A stretch of 32,271 bases of DNA from Chloroflexota bacterium (GCA_014360825.1 JACIWT010000023.1:1-32271), one strand, 5' to 3'. Shown: positions 1-32,271, numbered from the stretch's first letter. Numbers and translations are program-made. Notes: generated by a model from the letters alone, not told the origin.

Positions 1-120
1 AATTGGTTTCCTGGGGAAATTCAGGTAGCAATACCTAGCGAAGACGGAAAGAACATCCTAGATTTTAATGCGGATGATATCTTGAATCAGCGGGGGGATC
101 TTGTTTTCACTCTCCCTTGA
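1..120 (+). CDS. C-terminal end of cassette gene A1 (partial)
   Basis: An open frame from the first base runs 39 codons to TGA at 118-120. The tail contains PGEIQVAIPSEDG and ends DLVFTLP. It resembles the end of the ORF at 27366-28958 (PGSQAIISLP, then a hydrophobic finish ending VVFLVRSGS), and each is followed about 33 nt later by a homologous small membrane protein. I therefore read it as the end of a paralogue of that gene. The larger copy has an M23-like beta domain of uncertain function just before this tail. The gene starts left of the window. The assignment rests on gene order plus a short weak similarity. Confidence 0.6.
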   Translation, partial: NWFPGEIQVAIPSEDGKNILDFNADDILNQRGDLVFTLP

Positions 121-154: not shown

Positions 155-707
155 ATGGAAACTGCCCAGGATTCTAAACTCCCCAAAATTGCCCTTTTTG
201 GTCTGATTTCTTTGATAATTGTCCTCATTGGGTTCAATCTTGCTCTCTCTCGCTATGGTGTCTTTTGGCGGAAACCCCAACCAGGGATTTCTTCACCCTC
301 TCCAGAGCCTCTCAAGGAGGTAGAATTCACCATCGGTTGTCCAGTGCCTCAAGATTACTGTCAGTCTGGAAAAGAAGTTTATTGGGAAGGGGAATTGGCA
401 GGAATAGAATTTATTTTACCTGAAGGAACGCCCTTGCTGGTAGCCTTTACGGGTGAGCCAAATCGGGGAGCGGGGAAAAACGAGGATGGAACACCTTTTA
501 AGGTAATTTCTTTAACTAGTCAAGAGGGCTATAAAGCCGTTTTTTTTCCAGGGAGAACCAGAGGTTTTACCCTTTGCCGTAAGGAAGGGTGACATTCTTA
601 CTCGGATAAGTGGTGAGCCAATTTTTTCTACCAGAGAAGTAAATTTTTATTTTAGTGTGGAAAAGGATGGAGAATCCCTGCCAATTACCGGCAATAGTTT
701 CCAATGA
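155..707 (+). CDS. Small membrane-anchored cassette protein B1, interrupted by a one-base frameshift
   Basis: The uninterrupted frame from ATG 155 ends at TGA 590-592 (145 aa). Removing one T from the run of eight T at 540-547 makes the frame continue to TGA 705-707, giving 183 aa against 184 aa for the paralogue at 28992-29546. The restored tail aligns with it (ILTRISGEP then TREVN, versus VLGRVSKEP then TREIN). The protein has a short cytoplasmic start, one membrane segment at about residues 11-31, the shared motif LSRYGVFW (paralogue MSRYGAFW), a Pro-rich stretch, and a beta-rich domain that could be a degenerate M23/lysostaphin-like barrel without metal ligands. There is no clear Shine-Dalgarno site. 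Its restored stop overlaps the start of C1. The frameshift may be a homopolymer sequencing error or a real mutation. Function unknown. Confidence 0.7.
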
Positions 708-1510
708 TGACTAAACGAATCTGTCAGATTTTCTTTTTCTTGCTTTTACTGGCTGGTTTCCTTTTCTGGCCCCAAAAAGCCTTGGCCGATACTTGCGGAG
801 AGGGCTGTACAGAAGTCTCTATGGCAGATTGCGAGAGAAATGGCGCTCTTTTAGAAAACAGGTGTTGTCAACCGGGCGAACCATGTGATGTTTGGACATT
901 TAAGTATGCTTATTCTTGTTGCAAATGTGGGGAATCCGGATGGTATTGGTGGATTTATTTGTATGCTTATTATCAGTGTGATGCTTCGGACCGGTGTGAA
1001 GGGGCGACGGGCGGAGGGAATACTGGTTATGCGGCCAATGGCCATGTGGTACCGGGGATTTGTAATGCCTCAAGTTACAATGGCACTGACCCGAATACCG
1101 CTTGTGTGAATGGGTCTTGGTATAAAACTTGCTGTACTCCGCCGGGCGTTTATCCAGTGACTTATTGTGAGGGCGGAAGGCCTGACCGCGATCTTTGTGC
1201 TAATTCGGGAGGAGTTTTGATTGACGGCCAGAGCTGCGGGACGGCGACTCCGCCGCCGGGGGCGACGCCGACGCCGACACCGACACCGGGAGAAACACCC
1301 GGGAGTTCAATTTGGGTGAATGTCAAAGGAGATGAGGTGATTAAGGGTTCTCGGGTTGAGATTGAGGTTTGCCAAAAACCAGCCCAATTATTTCACCAAC
1401 GACATAACGACAGGGCCAGTAATATGCAGTTTTCTCCCAATCTGGCTCGACCCGGGGATGAGGTTACCTTAACTTTTTCTACCCAGAATGTGGTCCGAGT
1501 TTTGCGCTAA
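704..1510 (+). CDS. Cys-rich secreted cassette protein C1, truncated
   Basis: The protein begins with a hydrophobic signal sequence (residues about 5-28, ending KALA-D). A Cys- and aromatic-rich module follows (repeated CC pairs, WYWWIYLYAYYQC), then a Thr-Pro linker at about 1248-1290, then IWVNVKGDEVIKGS and VCQKPAQ. The same order is present in the much longer C2 protein at 29548-31884. Right after VCQKPAQ the sequence jumps (LFHQRHNDRAS) to the Ig-like segment that lies about 190 residues further on in C2, so roughly 560 bp is missing. The ORF ends abruptly at 1510, just inside that Ig-like segment, where GC-rich sequence begins. ATG 704 overlaps the restored B1 stop (ATGA). ATG 707 is the alternative and matches the MTK start of C2. 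Likely surface-exposed; function unknown. Confidence 0.65.
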   Translation: MMTKRICQIFFFLLLLAGFLFWPQKALADTCGEGCTEVSMADCERNGALLENRCCQPGEPCDVWTFKYAYSCCKCGESGWYWWIYLYAYYQCDASDRCEGATGGGNTGYAANGHVVPGICNASSYNGTDPNTACVNGSWYKTCCTPPGVYPVTYCEGGRPDRDLCANSGGVLIDGQSCGTATPPPGATPTPTPTPGETPGSSIWVNVKGDEVIKGSRVEIEVCQKPAQLFHQRHNDRASNMQFSPNLARPGDEVTLTFSTQNVVRVLR

Positions 1511-2973: not shown

Positions 2974-5195
2974 GCGAGAGCATCATTGGCACGAGCGTCA
3001 CCCGCCTAGATATTCACACCAAAGTCCAAGGCCAGCGCAAATACCCTCAAGATTTCAACATGGACGGCCAACTCTACGCGGTCGTAGTATGGGCGGAATA
3101 CCCTCACTCCATTGTCAAGCACATTGATACCAGCGCCGCCGAGGCCTCGCCCGGCGTGGTGCGGGTCATCACTTACAAGGATGTGCCAGTGAACGAATAC
3201 GGCATTAACATCAAGGACCAGCCCGTGCTCGTGGCGGAGGGCGATAAAGTGCGGTGGATGGGCGACCGGATCGCCATCGTGGTGGCGGAGAGTCAGCGGG
3301 CCGCTGAACAAGCGCGCAAGTTGGTGAAAGTGGAGTACGAGCCCCTGCCTGTGGTCACCGACCCGCGTGAGGCTATGAAACCAGATGCACCCCGAGTACA
3401 TGAGGAACGGGGTGAGAGCAACGTCCTCCATCACATCAAAATTCGCAAGGGCGATGTGGAGGCAGGCTTCGCTGAGGCCGACGTGGTCGTGGACGGCTAT
3501 TTCATCACGCCGGCCGTCGAGCACATCTACATGCAGCCCGAGGCAGGCATTGGCTACATAGATGAAGAGGGCAGGGTAACGGTCATCGCCGCCGCGCAGT
3601 GGCCCCACGACGACTTGCATCAAATCGCCCACTTCCTGAACCTACCTGAGGACCAGGTCCGTGAAATCGTGCCAGCCGTCGGCGGAGCGTTCGGTGGGCG
3701 CGAGGATATGTACATCCAACACTTGCTGGCGCTGGCCGCTTATGTGGTGCGCCGCCCGGTCAAGATGGTGTGGACGCGAGAGGAATCCATCCAGTGCAGT
3801 GGTAAGCGCCACCCGTTCTACATGAAGTACAAAGTGGGGGCGAAGCGCGATAGCATGTTGACGGCGATGGAGATCGAGATCATCACCGATGCTGGCGCTT
3901 ATGCCTCCACCAGTATCCCGGTGCTCAGCAATGCTGCCACTTTCGCTGCAGGACCATACAAAGTACCCAATGCCAAAGTGGACGCCTACACGGTCTACAC
4001 CAACAACGCCGTGACGATGGCTATGCGCGGTTTCGGTGCCACTCAGCCGCCAGTGGGCTATGAATCCATGATGGACCGGATGGCCGAGGCCCTGGGGATG
4101 GACCCTGTCGAGTTGCGAATGAAAAACCTCCTTGATGAAAGTGATGTGGCCCTCACCGGCAATGTGATGCGTGGCGGGGTCGCAGGGCTCAAGGAGACAC
4201 TGCGCCAGGCAGCCCTCGCTGCCGGCTGGCGGCAAGTGGGTGGACGATGGATCAAGCCAGATCTAGGCCAAGCGTCGGCGACATATAAGCGGCGAGGCAT
4301 CGGCGTGGCTGTGGCTTACAAGAATGTGGGCTACAGCCTGGGTTTCGATGACAAGGCAACTTGTACTGTCGAACTAAGCCTGGCCCCCAATGGGGATATC
4401 CAGCGTGCACTGCTCAAGATCGGCGCATCGGATGTCGGTGAAGGGGTGTGGACTGCATTAGCGCAGATCGCCGCTGAGACGTTGAAAATTGACATGTCCA
4501 AAGTGCGGCTGGCTTTCCTCGATACGGCCAAGGTGCCTGATGCAGGGAGTTCTTCGGCCTCCCGGCATGTGTTTGTCTCGGGCAACGCCGTAGTGCGTGC
4601 CTGCCAAGAGGCGTTGGCGAAGCGCGATGCCATCCTACGCGCCGAAACAGGCGAGACGAAGGTAGTAGCCCAGGCAACCTACCACGGCCGAGAGGCACGG
4701 GCCACGACGCCATTTGATCCCCAGACTGGGCTCTGTGAGCCACACTGTGCCTACGGCTATGCCACACAAATCGCGTTGGTGGAAGTGGATACGGAGACGG
4801 GCGAAGTAGAGGTGCTGAAGATCTGGTCTGCCCACGATGTGGGCAAGGCCATCAACCTGGAAATGGTCGTGGGGCAGATCGGCGGCGGGGTACATATGGG
4901 TGTGGGCTACGCACTCACTGAGCACTTCATCCAGCAAGGTGGCCGGGCCCAGACAAGACACATGAGCGAATACTACATCCCCACGGTGCGCGATATGCCG
5001 CGGGAACTGGTGCCCATCATCGTGGAGGTGCCTGACCCTTGGGGGCCTTACGGCGCAAAGGGATTGGGAGAAATGACCACATTGCCAACCGCCCCAGCCA
5101 TACTGAATGCTATCCACGATGCGACAGGAGTGTGGATTGACTCGCTGCCGGCGACGCCGGAGCGGGTGTGGCGCGCTCTACAGAGAAAAGGTTGA
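2970..5195 (+). CDS. Xanthine dehydrogenase-type hydroxylase, molybdopterin-binding (large) subunit
   Basis: A 741-aa catalytic subunit. ATG 2970 is chosen because it overlaps the small-subunit stop (ATGA) and has AAAGGGGG upstream; the frame is open further upstream without a better start. Seen: the molybdopterin motif GGAFGG at residues 238-243, AMRGFGATQ, and GLGE ending in the expected catalytic glutamate E701. It lacks the AYRCSFR-type active-site loop of true aerobic CO dehydrogenase large subunits, so a purine- or N-heterocycle/aldehyde-oxidising enzyme is more likely. The exact substrate cannot be read from sequence. No XdhC-type maturation factor is seen in the window. Confidence 0.93.
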   Translation: MSESIIGTSVTRLDIHTKVQGQRKYPQDFNMDGQLYAVVVWAEYPHSIVKHIDTSAAEASPGVVRVITYKDVPVNEYGINIKDQPVLVAEGDKVRWMGDRIAIVVAESQRAAEQARKLVKVEYEPLPVVTDPREAMKPDAPRVHEERGESNVLHHIKIRKGDVEAGFAEADVVVDGYFITPAVEHIYMQPEAGIGYIDEEGRVTVIAAAQWPHDDLHQIAHFLNLPEDQVREIVPAVGGAFGGREDMYIQHLLALAAYVVRRPVKMVWTREESIQCSGKRHPFYMKYKVGAKRDSMLTAMEIEIITDAGAYASTSIPVLSNAATFAAGPYKVPNAKVDAYTVYTNNAVTMAMRGFGATQPPVGYESMMDRMAEALGMDPVELRMKNLLDESDVALTGNVMRGGVAGLKETLRQAALAAGWRQVGGRWIKPDLGQASATYKRRGIGVAVAYKNVGYSLGFDDKATCTVELSLAPNGDIQRALLKIGASDVGEGVWTALAQIAAETLKIDMSKVRLAFLDTAKVPDAGSSSASRHVFVSGNAVVRACQEALAKRDAILRAETGETKVVAQATYHGREARATTPFDPQTGLCEPHCAYGYATQIALVEVDTETGEVEVLKIWSAHDVGKAINLEMVVGQIGGGVHMGVGYALTEHFIQQGGRAQTRHMSEYYIPTVRDMPRELVPIIVEVPDPWGPYGAKGLGEMTTLPTAPAILNAIHDATGVWIDSLPATPERVWRALQRKG

Positions 5196-27057: not shown

Positions 27058-27102
27058 CTGAGCCGCCAGCGATAAAACAGCGCGGCGATGGAGGAATAAT
27101 CC

Positions 27103-27162
27103 ATGGGAACAATCTCCAGATTGCGACGAGCGCATCGCCGTCTGGAGACGGCTCCCACCTGA
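27103..27162 (+). CDS. 19-codon ORF whose body is a repeat hairpin
   Basis: ATG 27103 with GGAGGA 7 nt upstream and a good promoter opens a 19-aa Arg-rich reading frame (MGTISRLRRAHRRLETAPT). It is made entirely from the double-hairpin repeat and ends at TGA 27160-27162. It may be the start of a gene overwritten by repeat insertion, a leader peptide, or chance. It is not a conserved family that I know. Confidence 0.25.
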   Translation: MGTISRLRRAHRRLETAPT

Positions 27163-27522
27163 GAGTAGGGACGGAGGGAGAACGCGAACCCCGAAGCACG
27201 AGGGAAAACAGCACTGGCCGCATTCATCGTAGTACTGGCAGCGATGGCTACCCTGGGCGCTGCGCCCGCCTCGGCTGGCCAGTCGTGGGAGCAATCTCCA
27301 GATTGCGACCAGAGTATCGCCGTCTGGCGACGGCTCCCACTTGAGAGCAGGGACGGAGGGAGAACATGAACCCTGAAGCACGAGGGAAAACAGCCCTGGC
27401 CGCATTCATCGTGGTACTGGCAGTGATGGCTGCCCTGAGCGCTGCGCCCGCTTATGCTGGCCAGTCGTGGGAGCAATCTCCAGATTGCGACGAGCGCATC
27501 GCCGTCTGGAGACGGCTCCCAC
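27104..27522 (+). repeat. 182-bp tandem repeat (2.3 units) with double-hairpin element and signal-peptide module
   Basis: Each unit is 182 bp, with equivalent points at 27111, 27293 and 27475. The hairpin part occupies 27104-27158, 27285-27340 and 27467-27522. The full form is GTGGGAGC, hairpin GCAATCT-CC-AGATTGC, 11-13 nt, hairpin GCCGTCT-GG-AGACGGC, then GCTCCCAC closing an 8-bp outer stem. The rest of each unit contains GGAGGG, a start site and a hydrophobic signal peptide (TALAAFIVVLA). The first unit has GCG (27184) where the second has ATG (27366). As 182 is not a multiple of three, successive units fall in different frames. Confidence 0.9.
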
Positions 27523-28958
27523 TTGTGAATACCCGCCACCGAATGGAATTCGGTGGCTACACCCGGGATGCAGGGACGACCGGCCGGTCGCCCCTATTGG
27601 AAATCGCATTTCCGGGCGCGGCCGGTAGCGAGATCCCGACCCACGCGGGTCGCCGGTGGATGAATCCACCGGCTGGTCTTGTCAAGTCCCGCTGGGACTG
27701 GGCCACGATGGGCCGCCAAACCCATTCACAGGCGTCCCCGCCCACCCAGATTGCCCCGACCGGATACATCTCTTACACCATCCGCCCCGAAGACATCGTT
27801 TCCCAAGAAAAAATCTTAGCCAATCCCTACTATCGGGAAAAAATAAACTCCACCTACTGGCTTCCGCCTTTTCGCGACAACGAGCGCCAAAAAGTAATGG
27901 ATGAGTGTATCTTCCGAGCCACTGTCTTTGGGATTATGGCCAAGAATAATCCCGAGATTGCCGCCATTACCGATCCTTATCAGCAGGCGTTAAAAATCCT
28001 TGAGGTGGCAGCGGTTGATCCCAATTTGGCCTCCATGATGCCCCACTTTAGAGGAGCAACAGGAATGAGCGTGGAGGAGGCTAGTCAGTGGCGGCAAAGA
28101 GTAGTCAATTGGTTGAAGGAAAATCAAACAAAGAATCCGGCCTCTTTCCGAGGCTGGGTGAACTGGCTTTTGGAAGGGGCAAAAGTCAGGCCCGGGGTGG
28201 TCATCCAAGTTCCCACCCCCACCCCCCAACGGCCACCAGCGACACCGGAACTTTTGGCGCCCAAAGTTGATTGGCTAAAGCCGGTGAGGGAAGGGGACAA
28301 AATTGTTTACCGCGCCGAGACGGGCAACCCCTATGGCCTGGAAGCCGGCGCTTATGCTGGCGAGACAATAACCTATAATTCCCAAAAAGAGATCGGCGTG
28401 GTTTTGGTTGCCGAAGTGGTTAAGGCTTTGATGGAGAAGGCAAATACTCCCGGATCAATCGCCAGGGGAGAGTACAAAGTTCCTCTTCCGCTCGATCCAA
28501 GAGGAGAAAAAACCCTGCAAATCGAGGAATTTGTGTGGTTTTGCAAGTATTATCAGCAAACATGGAAGCTTTTAGTAATAAAGGGGATTTCATCAAATGC
28601 TGTTTTTGTTTCTCCTCTTCCTGGAAAAGTGATGGTTATAGCAGCAGGCTCGCCTTGGTTTGGTCCGGCAATTGTTTTAGAGCTACCCCAGGAACGGATG
28701 TGGGGACAAGAGGGTCAGCTTAATGTAATTTATCCAAAAGGAAGTCAGGCCCGAGCGCATGGAGAGATGGTTCAGATGGGCAACCCTATTGTTTGGGGAA
28801 TAGAAGGAAAACTTACTAAGCCTGATGCCCCTCCTGGAAGCCAGGCAATTATTAGTCTACCCAAACCCGCTGCTGAGTTTGCTGGTTTTGACACCCCAAA
28901 TCATATTTTAAAAATTGATGAGGACGCAGTGGTCTTTCTTGTCCGAAGTGGTTCTTGA
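27366..28958 (+). CDS. Hybrid ORF: repeat-encoded signal peptide fused in frame to cassette protein A2
   Basis: A 530-aa frame starting at ATG 27366 with GGAGGG upstream. Residues 1-31 are a convincing Sec signal peptide (ends APAYA-G). Residues 32 to ~115 are translated hairpin repeats (WEQSPDCDERIAVWRRLPL and others) and are unlikely to be an evolved domain. From about residue 120 (27,740) base composition turns AT-rich and the true A2 protein begins: a helical region (YREKINSTYWLPPFRDNERQ), a Thr-Pro spacer near residue 280, and a beta-rich C-terminus (PLPGKVMVIAAGS, then YPKGSQARAHGEMVQMGNPI) laid out like an M23/lysostaphin barrel but without HxxxD or HxH ligands. It is followed by B2 and C2. 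The native A2 start is probably missing. Function unknown. Confidence 0.6.
   Translation: MNPEARGKTALAAFIVVLAVMAALSAAPAYAGQSWEQSPDCDERIAVWRRLPLVNTRHRMEFGGYTRDAGTTGRSPLLEIAFPGAAGSEIPTHAGRRWMNPPAGLVKSRWDWATMGRQTHSQASPPTQIAPTGYISYTIRPEDIVSQEKILANPYYREKINSTYWLPPFRDNERQKVMDECIFRATVFGIMAKNNPEIAAITDPYQQALKILEVAAVDPNLASMMPHFRGATGMSVEEASQWRQRVVNWLKENQTKNPASFRGWVNWLLEGAKVRPGVVIQVPTPTPQRPPATPELLAPKVDWLKPVREGDKIVYRAETGNPYGLEAGAYAGETITYNSQKEIGVVLVAEVVKALMEKANTPGSIARGEYKVPLPLDPRGEKTLQIEEFVWFCKYYQQTWKLLVIKGISSNAVFVSPLPGKVMVIAAGSPWFGPAIVLELPQERMWGQEGQLNVIYPKGSQARAHGEMVQMGNPIVWGIEGKLTKPDAPPGSQAIISLPKPAAEFAGFDTPNHILKIDEDAVVFLVRSGS
27535..27699. repeat. Array of six consecutive hairpins
   Basis: Stems in order: 27535-27544/27548-27557 (10 bp, 3-nt loop); palindrome CGACCGGCCGGTCG 27577-27590; GGAAAT/ATTTCC 27599-27613; CGACCC/GGGTCG 27637-27652; GCCGGTGGA/TCCACCGGC 27652-27673 with loop TGAA; AGTCCC/GGGACT 27685-27699. 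All are perfect stems. They follow directly on the third repeat unit and end where the composition changes. This looks like a mosaic of REP-type elements. Confidence 0.8.
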
Positions 28959-28984
28959 CAAATTAGGTCCTTCCTTTGTATCAT
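28955..28984 (+). promoter_or_regulatory. Promoter for B2, predicted leaderless
   Basis: TTGACA (28955-28960) overlaps the TGA stop of A2. An 18-nt spacer leads to TATCAT (28979-28984). The ATG at 28992 begins 7 nt after the -10 box, where transcription should start. There is no Shine-Dalgarno site. The geometry is the same as at 117-145. Confidence 0.65.
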
Positions 28985-28991
28985 AAACTTA

Positions 28992-29546
28992 ATGCTGCCC
29001 AGTAGTAAATCACAACTTTTCTTTCTTTCCTTCCTCATTGTTCTAATTGTTGGTTTACTTGGTTTCAACTTGGTCATGTCGCGCTATGGTGCCTTTTGGC
29101 AAAAGAAGGAGCCACTTGGTCAGGTCCCCCCCTCGGCTCAACCAACCCCCGCTTCTTTCCAACCGCCTTTGTTTAGTCCGCCGGTTGAAAAAGAGCATCT
29201 TGGGCAGGTCAAAATTACCCAGTTAGATTTAGGCCAGAATGACTTAGGGTTTTCCCTGCCCGAGGGAGCACCATTTTATGCCGGCTTTGAGGGAATTGTA
29301 GAAGTGGTAGGGGAGCCACCCCAACAGATTATTGCCTTAAATTCTCTGGACGGAAAAAGAAGACTCCATTATCTTTTTTCCGGAGTCGCGCTGGTTGTTA
29401 ACGGATCAAAAGTGACCGAGGGTGAGGTTTTAGGCAGGGTCAGCAAAGAGCCATTGCCCACAAGGGAGATTAATCTTATTGTTTCCTATTTTCAAAATGG
29501 AGAAAAAGTAAGTTTGAGCCAGGAGATTATTGAGGCCCTGGAATAA
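28992..29546 (+). CDS. Small membrane-anchored cassette protein B2
   Basis: A 184-aa protein. The N-terminus is cytoplasmic and short, with one membrane segment (residues ~9-28) followed by MSRYGAFW, then a Pro-rich linker (to ~residue 60) and a beta-rich domain (FSLPEGAPFYAGFEGIVEV, KVTEGEVLGRVSKEP, ending near EIIEALE). The strand-glycine pattern V-x-x-G-x-x-x-G recalls biotinyl/M23-type barrels, but no metal ligands are present. It is paralogous to B1 (183 aa after frame correction). It starts 33 nt after A2 and is followed by C2 after 1 nt. It could anchor or scaffold the secreted A and C proteins; that is inference from gene order and topology. Confidence 0.75.
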   Translation: MLPSSKSQLFFLSFLIVLIVGLLGFNLVMSRYGAFWQKKEPLGQVPPSAQPTPASFQPPLFSPPVEKEHLGQVKITQLDLGQNDLGFSLPEGAPFYAGFEGIVEVVGEPPQQIIALNSLDGKRRLHYLFSGVALVVNGSKVTEGEVLGRVSKEPLPTREINLIVSYFQNGEKVSLSQEIIEALE

Positions 29547-29547
29547 A

Positions 29548-31884
29548 ATGACTAAGAAGACATTGTTTGTTATTTTCATTCTTTTTTGTGCCTTATTTTT
29601 GTTTCCGAAGGACGTGGTTGAGGCGGCATATCTTTACGAGGATCCATGTGATTCTACAACCTGTCCTCCACCTCCCTCTAAAGATACCTATTGCTGCGAT
29701 ACTGGTTCAAGTTGTTCTCCCAATTTGGGCGGAAACTGTAATAATGTCCAGCCCTGGACCTATTGTTATAATCCAACATGTAAAATGATAACAGGAACGT
29801 GTCAGTGGGATTGGTATTATTACACCTGTGGGGCTTACGATACTTGTATTTCTTCTGATGGGCCTTATCTGCGGGCGGGTCGGTGTGGGCAAGGTACTGC
29901 CTGCGATACAACTGGCTGTCTATACGGTGGTATCTATAAGACCTGCTGCGCAGTTGACAGTAAAGGAAATTTAACCGGACAGTTAGGGGGAACTTGCTCT
30001 GGCGGCTGTCGTACCGGAACTTGTCCTTCAGGCTCAACGGCTGTTCAATGCGGTTTTGACAACAAGCCCGCCTGTGGGGTTTCTGCGTGCCAGGCGGGTG
30101 CGCCGACTTCCACCCCGCCGCCTGGGCCGACGCCGACGCCGACGCCAACACCCCAGCCGCCAGCACCTAGTTGGATCTGGGTTAATGTCCGGGGGGATGA
30201 GGTTATCAAGGGTTCTTCGGTTTCTATTGATGTTTGTCAAAAACCGGCCCAATGTTGGAATAAAGCCTGTTACTATGACTCGATTGAAGTTCGAAATGCC
30301 GCCAAGGGTTATCTTTCTCCTTATGGGAAGAAGATGTGTACTACAACTGGTTGGCAGAGCGGCGCTCACTGCCATGATTGTACTAATTATCCTGGTGATA
30401 AGACTAATACCGGATATCAAAAAACCTGCACTTGGAACACCACCAACTTTCCGGCCGGCTACTATAATGCCCGGGTCTATTATGGCGGGCATGGGCCGGG
30501 GACTTGTGAGGATGGGGCGAGGGAAGCCTTTGATCCGGTGATTCTTTGTGAACAAGGCACTTTTTACACAAACCCAAAATGCGGTTGGTCGGGTAACAAT
30601 TGGTGTGCTTTGCCAAATGGTTTAACTCCGCGCGATTGTAATACTGGTTGGGTTAGTGGACCGACTATTCCGGTTTGGTGTCCCTCTTTTGCTTATTTCA
30701 CCAACACTGGAAAATATTGTCCGGAAAATGCCGATAAACTTAAGAAATTTGAGGGTAAGGTTAGCCAGTGTATAGTGGATGATGGTTGTAATCCTCCAAG
30801 GTGCAGTAACTTGAGTCTTTCTCCAAACCCGGTGGAACCAGGAAAATCAGTAACAGTGACATTTAATACCAGCAATGTCCAAGAGTCCTGGTTGCATCTT
30901 TTTCAGGGAACGACCCAAGTAGCCCAGTATAAAATCTCCAGCGGACAGTCATTTCCTGCCCCCTCGACTACCGGCACCTATAGCGTTAAACTCAATGCCT
31001 ATTCTACTGGTTGTCAAGGGCTTTGTGGCTGGGATGGAAATTGGTATAAGGCTAACGACAAAACTTGCCCTTCAGGCTGGGTGACTAATCTTGGCTCTGG
31101 TTGTGGGGGATGCCAGGCGACTTTGACAGTTACAACTATCACGCCGACGGTAACTCCAACCCCGACGGTGACACCCGTACCTGGCTGTCCGGTAACAGAT
31201 GGCAATCCTTCGGCTGACGAATCTCCTACAGGAGTAACCGCTATCCGGGCTGGGTCAAATATCAATATCTCCTGGGTTGATAATGCCATTGGGGAAACCA
31301 GATTTAGGATCGAATATCAGGTTGATGGAGGAAACTGGCGGTTTTTAACTACAGTTGGGGCCAATACTACCAGCACTGTTCATACTAGTGTCGGCTCTTC
31401 ATCTTCCTATCGTTATCGAGTTCGGGCCGAAGACCCAACCTTTTCCGCAAACTGCTACACCAACTGGGGCTATAGCAATGTTGTTCCTGGAGTGACTCCT
31501 ACTCCTACCCCCACTCCCACCGGGGTTCCTTCTTGTAACATTTCTTTATCTCCGGCTGATTTGACTTTGGATCAGGGCGAAAGCGGGCCTCAGGTGGCCA
31601 GTGTTACTACTAGTCCGGCGGGGACAACTGTTAACCGGGTTCGCTTTTTGTCCTTGGACCAGAGGATTGCTTGTGTTTATCCGGTTGACAGCTGTGTTTC
31701 TTCGGTTGATGATTCTTCTTCGCCTTATTCAACCACTATCAGAGGAGTTTCCCCAGGCTCAACCCAAATCGTTGGTTATGCTTATTTAAATCCCGATGCG
31801 TTTTGGGCGTCGGTGGCGGGAAATCTCAATTGTGTTGGACGAAGGGCAGGTATACCCAGTAACTCACTGCGGGCTGATCCGTGA
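29548..31884 (+). CDS. Large Cys-rich secreted cassette protein C2, 3' end chimeric
   Basis: The start is ATG 29548 (MTKKTLF), one nt after the B2 stop; an in-frame ATG at 29530 inside B2 is less likely. A signal peptide (residues ~3-25) is followed by a Cys/aromatic module, a Thr-Pro linker (~30,115-30,160) and IWVNVRGDEVIKGS with VCQKPAQ. Next come a second Cys-rich region (~30,255-30,790), an Ig-like domain (LSLSPNPVEPGKSVTVTF), another Thr-Pro linker, an FN3 domain (~31,200-31,480), a third linker and a Big-like domain (ISLSPADLTLDQGES). The last ~20 residues read antisense through the peptidase gene at 31826, so the natural C-terminus is lost at a junction near 31,805-31,826. The architecture suggests a multi-domain surface adhesin; ligand unknown. 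Confidence 0.75.
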   Translation: MTKKTLFVIFILFCALFLFPKDVVEAAYLYEDPCDSTTCPPPPSKDTYCCDTGSSCSPNLGGNCNNVQPWTYCYNPTCKMITGTCQWDWYYYTCGAYDTCISSDGPYLRAGRCGQGTACDTTGCLYGGIYKTCCAVDSKGNLTGQLGGTCSGGCRTGTCPSGSTAVQCGFDNKPACGVSACQAGAPTSTPPPGPTPTPTPTPQPPAPSWIWVNVRGDEVIKGSSVSIDVCQKPAQCWNKACYYDSIEVRNAAKGYLSPYGKKMCTTTGWQSGAHCHDCTNYPGDKTNTGYQKTCTWNTTNFPAGYYNARVYYGGHGPGTCEDGAREAFDPVILCEQGTFYTNPKCGWSGNNWCALPNGLTPRDCNTGWVSGPTIPVWCPSFAYFTNTGKYCPENADKLKKFEGKVSQCIVDDGCNPPRCSNLSLSPNPVEPGKSVTVTFNTSNVQESWLHLFQGTTQVAQYKISSGQSFPAPSTTGTYSVKLNAYSTGCQGLCGWDGNWYKANDKTCPSGWVTNLGSGCGGCQATLTVTTITPTVTPTPTVTPVPGCPVTDGNPSADESPTGVTAIRAGSNINISWVDNAIGETRFRIEYQVDGGNWRFLTTVGANTTSTVHTSVGSSSSYRYRVRAEDPTFSANCYTNWGYSNVVPGVTPTPTPTPTGVPSCNISLSPADLTLDQGESGPQVASVTTSPAGTTVNRVRFLSLDQRIACVYPVDSCVSSVDDSSSPYSTTIRGVSPGSTQIVGYAYLNPDAFWASVAGNLNCVGRRAGIPSNSLRADP

Positions 31885-32271
31885 GCGCAGCCAGTTCCGC
31901 GATGGTGGCCACCACAGTGCGGGTGAATTCGGTGGCGAAAGATGTATCCAGGTACGCCAGCACATCGCGGGTGGTGTGGTAATGGGGGTTGAAGTCATTC
32001 AGGTCTTCGATGAGTAAAAGGGCAGGGTAGCCCTCATACCAGAAGGGGGCGTGGTCGCTGTTTGGAATTGCTCCGGCTGTGATTTTCTCGGGCGTGAGGG
32101 CAATGTCATAGCGTGATATGGCGCTGATCACCGCATCGCCGAGAGCGCTCGATTCCAGAACCAAATCCCCGCAGTGGATATCGGCGGCACGGTCACCGTC
32201 GCTGTCCCAGGCCACCATATCCAGATTGATCACGCCCAGGATGTGGTCGCCACGCCCAGCGGCCTCGGAGG
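31826..32271 (-). CDS. M28-family metallopeptidase, C-terminal part
   Basis: The gene enters from the right edge; 148 codons plus stop are visible. Seen: GVINLDMVAWDSDGD, typical of M28 (aminopeptidase Y/S-like) peptidases, SDHAPFWYEGYPALLLIED, and NPHYHTTRD with the final zinc-binding His. The protein ends VYLPFVQHN; a YLP[LF]V-type tail is common on secreted Chloroflexota proteins and may be a sorting signal. The frame is open to the window edge, and an internal GTG at 32233 is not the true start. The C-terminus is intact, so the junction with the AT-rich segment lies just beyond its stop. Confidence 0.85.
   Translation of the reverse strand, partial: SEAAGRGDHILGVINLDMVAWDSDGDRAADIHCGDLVLESSALGDAVISAISRYDIALTPEKITAGAIPNSDHAPFWYEGYPALLLIEDLNDFNPHYHTTRDVLAYLDTSFATEFTRTVVATIAELAALTDQPAVSYWVYLPFVQHN

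Follow-up and report, generated by a model that had tools for sequence, protein, structure and literature searches.

How does one bacterial genome come to hold the same three genes at many unrelated places, and what might these genes do? This question is raised by a contig of 32,271 nucleotides (GCA_014360825.1, JACIWT010000023.1:1-32271), which we analysed at full length and refer to as the window. Close to its right-hand end three genes, A, B and C, follow one another on the plus strand. The window is the entire contig C23 of G000, a Chloroflexota metagenome-assembled genome (MAG) of 2.9 Mb in 64 contigs that is 98% complete; other C-numbers denote other contigs. We propose that A-B-C is a horizontally acquired and exchanged, polymorphic cell-envelope operon of Chloroflexota, a reading to which we assign a probability of roughly 0.55. 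We hold the exchange of a polymorphic operon with fair confidence, while a function as surface stalk is put forward tentatively, at odds well below even. The observations that carry the proposal are a conserved gene order, a split between host and foreign sequence within A, purifying selection, payloads that differ at a common junction and a linker found across families; here, "payload" stands for the end of A together with B and C, and "leader" for the start of A. The original prediction, made from the sequence alone, had assumed a Patescibacteria setting. This was not borne out: the MAG that includes the contig is from Chloroflexota, with G003 (JACIWX010000003.1, 'Chloroflexi bacterium MAG-37') as a relative in its own order, and Patescibacteria are ruled out as host.

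The duplication of the cassette in the window, claimed previously, was recovered. A left-hand copy (1-1510) is detected by the right-hand B (E 5e-10) and C (E 1.7e-15), well beyond chance; the gene order agrees, and IWVNV-GDEVIKGS and CQKPAQ are indeed common to both C copies. The right-hand cassette consists of gene A (27366-28958, plus strand, 530 amino acids), gene B (28992-29546, plus strand, 184 amino acids) and gene C (29548-31800, plus strand, with its ATG at 29548). Its location had been given correctly, except for the start at 27740, since A begins at 27366 and the own sequence of C ends near 31800, the final similarity to the C26 copy being at 31798. The left copy is present, as predicted, but damaged. 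What is left of its A gene is the final 39 codons (1-117, plus strand, translated in frame 1), which align with A of G003 and show 81% DNA identity to the C20 copy; there follow a B whose reading frame breaks at a T8 tract some 130 codons in (155-592, plus strand; open reading frame (ORF) and three-frame translation), and a shortened C (704-1510, plus strand; ORF, A6 profile E 5e-58) that enters host DNA upstream of xanthine-dehydrogenase-like genes. Its closest relatives are G000:C20 (81% DNA identity over 1117 bp) and G003 (75% over 1257 bp) and not the right copy.

The view that two diverged copies imply an expanding family was right about the expansion and wrong about the number, as G000 itself contains 9 matches to B, 8 to C and 27 to A. 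Complete or nearly complete cassettes were found on C19, C20 and C23 and near the end of C8; the one on C19 lies as a whole within a 38-kb contig, with host genes on either side. At contig ends we found five short remnants of A and several remnants with payload only, which is to be expected because repeats break the assembly. We estimate that G000 carries about ten A-B-C loci, at unrelated places. Adjacency in other genomes was checked with separate profiles for the three proteins (A5, A6 and A7), which were made here and run on every ORF of the fetched loci. Wherever C is present and the sequence ahead of it is long enough, B is the gene directly upstream (13/13 loci); these loci represent four genomes, each from a different family (C19, C23 right and left, C26, both ends of C20, C8, C32, C10, G003, C19 and C3 of G022, and G175). 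The profile recognized A at 9 of the 12 loci that extend beyond B on its upstream side, and tail homology identified it at another two (C23 left and G022 C3), while the ORF in the A position of G175 was not reached by the A profile. Thus the proposed adjacency of the three genes recurs, with the order A-B-C in G003, G022 and G175, members of other families of the class, and with fragments elsewhere. Downstream of C, no gene is common to the loci.

Gene A unites sequences of two kinds in a single frame: a host-like leader and a low-GC, LytM-like C-terminal domain (A5 profile E 1.9e-64). The GC content at third codon positions (GC3) is near 0.7 in host genes of the window sampled between 3 and 24 kb and 0.65-0.75 in host genes overall, while the leaders of A reach 0.67-0.72 in C23 and C19 and 0.55-0.57 in G003 and G022. 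In the payload, GC3 drops to 0.40-0.47 in C23, C19 (end of A, B and the Cys domain of C) and G003, with 0.41-0.47 for C23 and C19 on their own, and to 0.40-0.50 in G022; G175 is nearer to host composition. The leaders of G003 and G022 are unrelated, lipoprotein-like sequences, yet these loci show the same step in GC3. The payload is compositionally foreign, exchanged at fixed loci and joined to differing host leaders in different lineages, features missed by the original prediction.

The joint itself has a layered structure. Residues ~33-125 of the G000 leader include in-frame repeats resembling repetitive extragenic palindromic (REP) elements; in the window, an inverted-repeat search located them at 27467-27673 as inverted pairs of 24, 12, 10 and 10 bp. 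The first of these elements recurs in the genome, with short matches to A residues 29-57 on C4, C5, C11 and C31. Position 27740 marks the switch from the palindromic repeats to a conserved middle segment of A (27741-28253, plus strand, GC3 0.58), which shows 82-90% DNA identity between loci in some copies only (blastn) and which, according to the junction alignment, ends in a Pro/Thr linker at the start of the payload. The low-GC C-terminal domain of A follows at 28284-28955 (plus strand, GC3 0.41). Paralogues of the leader within the same genome, on C19, C20 and C51, are 55-64% identical. Around the start of A, Tandem Repeats Finder and a repeat search revealed 2.3 copies of a 182-bp unit (27104-27525, plus strand) that contains its ribosome-binding site, start codon, signal peptide and palindromic repeat; matches to the N-terminus of A at 27071-27163 and 27187-27348 fit this unit, and the tandem copies may offer spare start sites for A.

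The payload is under purifying selection. For most pairs of B and of C, the ratio of nonsynonymous to synonymous substitution rates (dN/dS) is about 0.2. By region, B gives values near 0.2, the Cys domain of C 0.20-0.30 and the end of A 0.18-0.33, with 0.27-0.49 for the leader of A; part of the signal in the payload could have been fixed in a donor.

Evidence for exchange comes from comparisons between genomes. Between G000 and G003, host genes are saturated at synonymous sites (dS above 2), whereas the payload gives a dS of 0.85-1.15. Moreover, the linker at the joint of A (PTPERPTPSAEAPELS..GSEA) is identical in 43/44 residues and 90% of bases between G000:C51 and G003, with identity at background level just downstream. 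Taken together, the near-identical linker and the payload dS set against saturated host genes are hard to explain without horizontal transfer. As for the source, a scan for the [LM]SRYGAFW motif of B in contigs of 84,980 species returned G003 as the sole match, which speaks against a close sequenced donor with this motif, not against a distant one. Among phages, plasmids and viral contigs we found no relative of the Cys domain of C, and none of B among plasmids and viral contigs.

In two cases, payloads differ at a common junction. G000:C10 and G076:C94 have a common mutS2 neighbour (dS 0.41; protein 93% identical) and the same junction between cassette and mutS2. Their C proteins are only 54% identical over the best alignment, while C of G076 is 86-89% identical to C of the C8 locus of G000. 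G076:C94 is probably a misbinned contig from a close relative of G000, within the bin of another family, and the case is a payload difference between lineages at one chromosomal spot, downstream of mutS2. The second locus is the right-hand end of the window. Here, the frame of C runs on through host DNA to the first stop (31801-31884, plus strand) and overlaps the 3' end of an M28-type peptidase gene (31826-32271, minus strand; ORF), which is cut by the contig end and found in full at L047:2112-3131; the family was assigned by inspection. The same junction is present at G000:C32:2057-2557 with 97% DNA identity, A, B and C all differ, and the break lies near the last 15 codons of C. The pair is allelic or a recent duplication, and its payloads probably differ at one spot. 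Regarding empty sites, the flanks of the G003 cassette enclose other genes in the sister genome G002, hence no clean empty site is available there, and the gene order upstream of hutI on C19 is not conserved in relatives.

In occupying the same chromosomal place with different content in relatives, as at mutS2, the cassette resembles replacement flexible genomic islands (Lopez-Perez et al. 2014, PMC4033161). These usually encode exposed structures, are tied to phage recognition and are proposed to be swapped through homologous recombination in response to pressure from phages (PMC4033161); for the cassette, signal peptides, a membrane helix and linkers are predicted from sequence. However, it is not a large cluster but measures ~3-5 kb, occupies about ten places per genome and always consists of the same three genes. 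In addition, its boundary falls inside a coding sequence.

What do the three proteins look like? The topologies that had been claimed fit. B has one N-terminal membrane helix according to hydropathy, followed by a degenerate LytM/M23 domain. C has a predicted signal peptide, a Cys-rich domain (29548-30105), Thr-Pro linkers and immunoglobulin (Ig)/fn3-like segments, and 12 of its Cys columns are conserved in at least 9/10 copies. The best solved relative of B by profile is DipM (7qrl, E 8.9e-8); 5kqb (2.2e-5) and active M23 enzymes are among the matches. PF01551 (peptidase family M23) matches 4/10 B sequences below E 0.1, the best at 6.4e-8, with B of the window under the Pfam cut-off. Unlike that family, B is without the catalytic His/Asp: at no position of the B alignment do at least half of the rows carry His or Asp. 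B is thus predicted to be a membrane-anchored, catalytically dead LytM/M23 domain without zinc ligands. The end of A is a distant relative of B (hhalign of A5 versus A7, 89% probability, E 2.2e-6) and has no Pfam match. AlphaFold2 models reached a predicted local distance difference test (pLDDT) score of 45 for B alone and 39 for the end of A (three-row alignment), too poor for a fold search. For C, an fn3 match was obtained in G003 (E 4.6e-13) and a weak Big_2 match in the window; its Cys domain has no relative among solved structures, and the libraries searched contain no family for either C or the A end. That B and C lack a match to any well-annotated full-length family agrees with the original prediction. 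Toxin, defence and PHROG families gave generic fn3/repeat matches only. Polymorphic toxins or contact-dependent inhibition, with a C-terminal toxin domain next to an immunity gene, do not fit: toxin and defence matches are lacking, the frame of C finishes in host DNA, and each locus has another gene after it.

Some further loci contain proteins of related appearance. At G045:C10 (L074:6895-7113), in another family, a lone B remnant of 73 amino acids lies beside an insertion sequence (IS) transposase-like gene and might be what is left of a decayed cassette. At G044:C8 (L104:2687-3235, 3440-4381), low-GC (0.38-0.43) single-pass B-like and Cys-rich C-like proteins are encoded downstream of hemA. 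The protein in the A position is unrelated to A, and the locus might represent a distant version of the operon; a fusion to hemA was ruled out, as hemA ends with its own stop. G140:C191 (L076:407-1240) encodes a lone lipoprotein in which a B-like LytM domain (E 2.4e-9) is combined with a long stretch of Thr-Pro linker, possibly a single-gene relative.

From these features a mode of action can be envisioned. Upstream region, export signal and the beginning of A would come from host DNA, so that the host leader exports A, and the exchangeable payload would consist of the LytM-like end of A, the anchored dead LytM domain of B and the secreted C with its Ig/fn3-like repeats. By analogy with DipM of Caulobacter, a degenerate LytM factor (PMC10336132; PDB 7qrl), the inactive domains of A and B may bind or regulate peptidoglycan without cutting it. 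B and DipM share the LytM profile alignment, the absence of zinc ligands and an export signal or anchor. In contrast to DipM, B is membrane-anchored, paired with a second LytM-like domain (A) and a Cys-rich secreted partner, fast evolving and multi-copy; a regulatory role for B, of the kind in which DipM-like LytM activators bind and activate cell-wall hydrolases, would be conjecture. B could plausibly tether the assembly to the membrane, and C, made rigid by disulfides and Thr-Pro stalks, might be displayed outside the wall. A payload swap would then alter the surface shown to phages, predators or partners, as in replacement islands, and swapping may proceed via homology in the A leader and linker. 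Integration that is homologous on one side and illegitimate on the other, as described in PMC3240628, followed by swapping from the 5' homologous leader, could account for the loss of the C 3' end. One might even speculate about a dedicated surface-diversifying system, in which the repeat-rich host leader and the 44-residue docking linker serve as landing place for payloads, each a dead-LytM anchor with a Cys-rich exoprotein, at about ten loci and from a cross-family pool; we regard this as doubtful. A literature search found no paper describing the A-B-C operon.

Several points weigh against an exchanged surface operon. The genomes are fragmented MAGs, and many cassettes lie at contig ends. 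The distribution is sparse, with B in 9/396 and C in 7/396 sampled genomes of the class, several of these matches being weak or single-gene, and C in 2/400 of a phylum sample. C32 and C23 could be paralogous loci rather than alleles. Some copies are broken (the left copy of the window, B of C51, A of C8). Furthermore, all C genes seen lack their 3' end, each from a different point on, and continue into host DNA, which is odd for a selected surface protein. One rival reading is that the loci are decaying foreign DNA, which would have entered by one-sided homologous, one-sided illegitimate recombination and would now be disappearing, with selection having acted in the donor rather than here. A shared 5' region combined with 3' ends that vary is consistent with homology-facilitated illegitimate recombination (PMC3240628), the native end of C is always absent, several copies carry frameshifts, and G045 retains only the 73-amino-acid stump of B. 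However, the frames of A, B and C are mostly open in about ten loci, and host leader and payload stay in frame. Besides, dN/dS of the leader is below 0.5 though the leader is host DNA, and the mutS2 junction is old, yet an open C is kept in both lineages. We consider decay an improbable explanation.

The contig ends, together with the sharp GC step within A, could also point to an assembly chimera, in which low-GC pieces from another organism (e.g., a Patescibacterium) became fused with Chloroflexota contigs through repeats found in both, for instance Thr-Pro linkers or REP palindromes. At G135:C294 (L103:4344-5582) the C frame indeed passes through a palindrome into a yvcK without N-terminus, the only yvcK match in that genome; the joint may be a chimera or a real disruption. 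Yet the cassette of C19 is flanked by host genes within one contig, the same in-frame joint between host and payload occurs in several contigs under purifying selection, the mutS2 junction is common to two assemblies diverged at dS 0.41, and hemA of G044 keeps its own stop and a terminator-like hairpin ahead of the cassette. For G000 a chimera is hence unlikely, while single contig-end cases such as G135 remain candidates. Antigenic variation within the genome by a dedicated system, where gene conversion would use archive copies to refill a small number of expressed loci, would agree with about ten related loci that have homogenised leaders (dS about 0.2-0.28) and divergent payloads, and with the C8-type C at the mutS2 locus of a relative. 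We consider it very unlikely: our annotation links neither a recombinase nor a reverse transcriptase to the loci, many of them have apparently intact leaders and starts, which leaves no clear silent archive, and payloads are also common to different families. Least of all do we favour an unrecognised transposon cargo, possibly moved via REP palindromes and a Y1 transposase resembling REP-associated tyrosine transposases (RAYT). Palindromes do occur in A ahead of the payload and also where C meets yvcK in G135, G000 has many REP-like palindromes, and a Y1/RAYT-like gene occurs near the C8 cassette (L046:1582-2238; MPNHVH motif; Y1_Tnp E 7.7e-4, under the cut-off). Nevertheless, neither constant ends nor an own transposase, as in a transposon or insertion sequence, were found: the 5' partners differ between families, the 3' ends all differ, no transposase adjoins most copies and no REP stack was seen at the G003 junction.

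If the surface reading of the exchanged A-B-C operon is true, it would provide a compact and countable case in which exchange diversifies the surface, in a phylum that is largely uncultured. It would predict which proteins vary between community neighbours, and loci of the mutS2 type make this prediction testable. The gene boundary across in-frame REP repeats and a Pro/Thr linker is, in addition, a concrete model for how foreign domains join host export signals.

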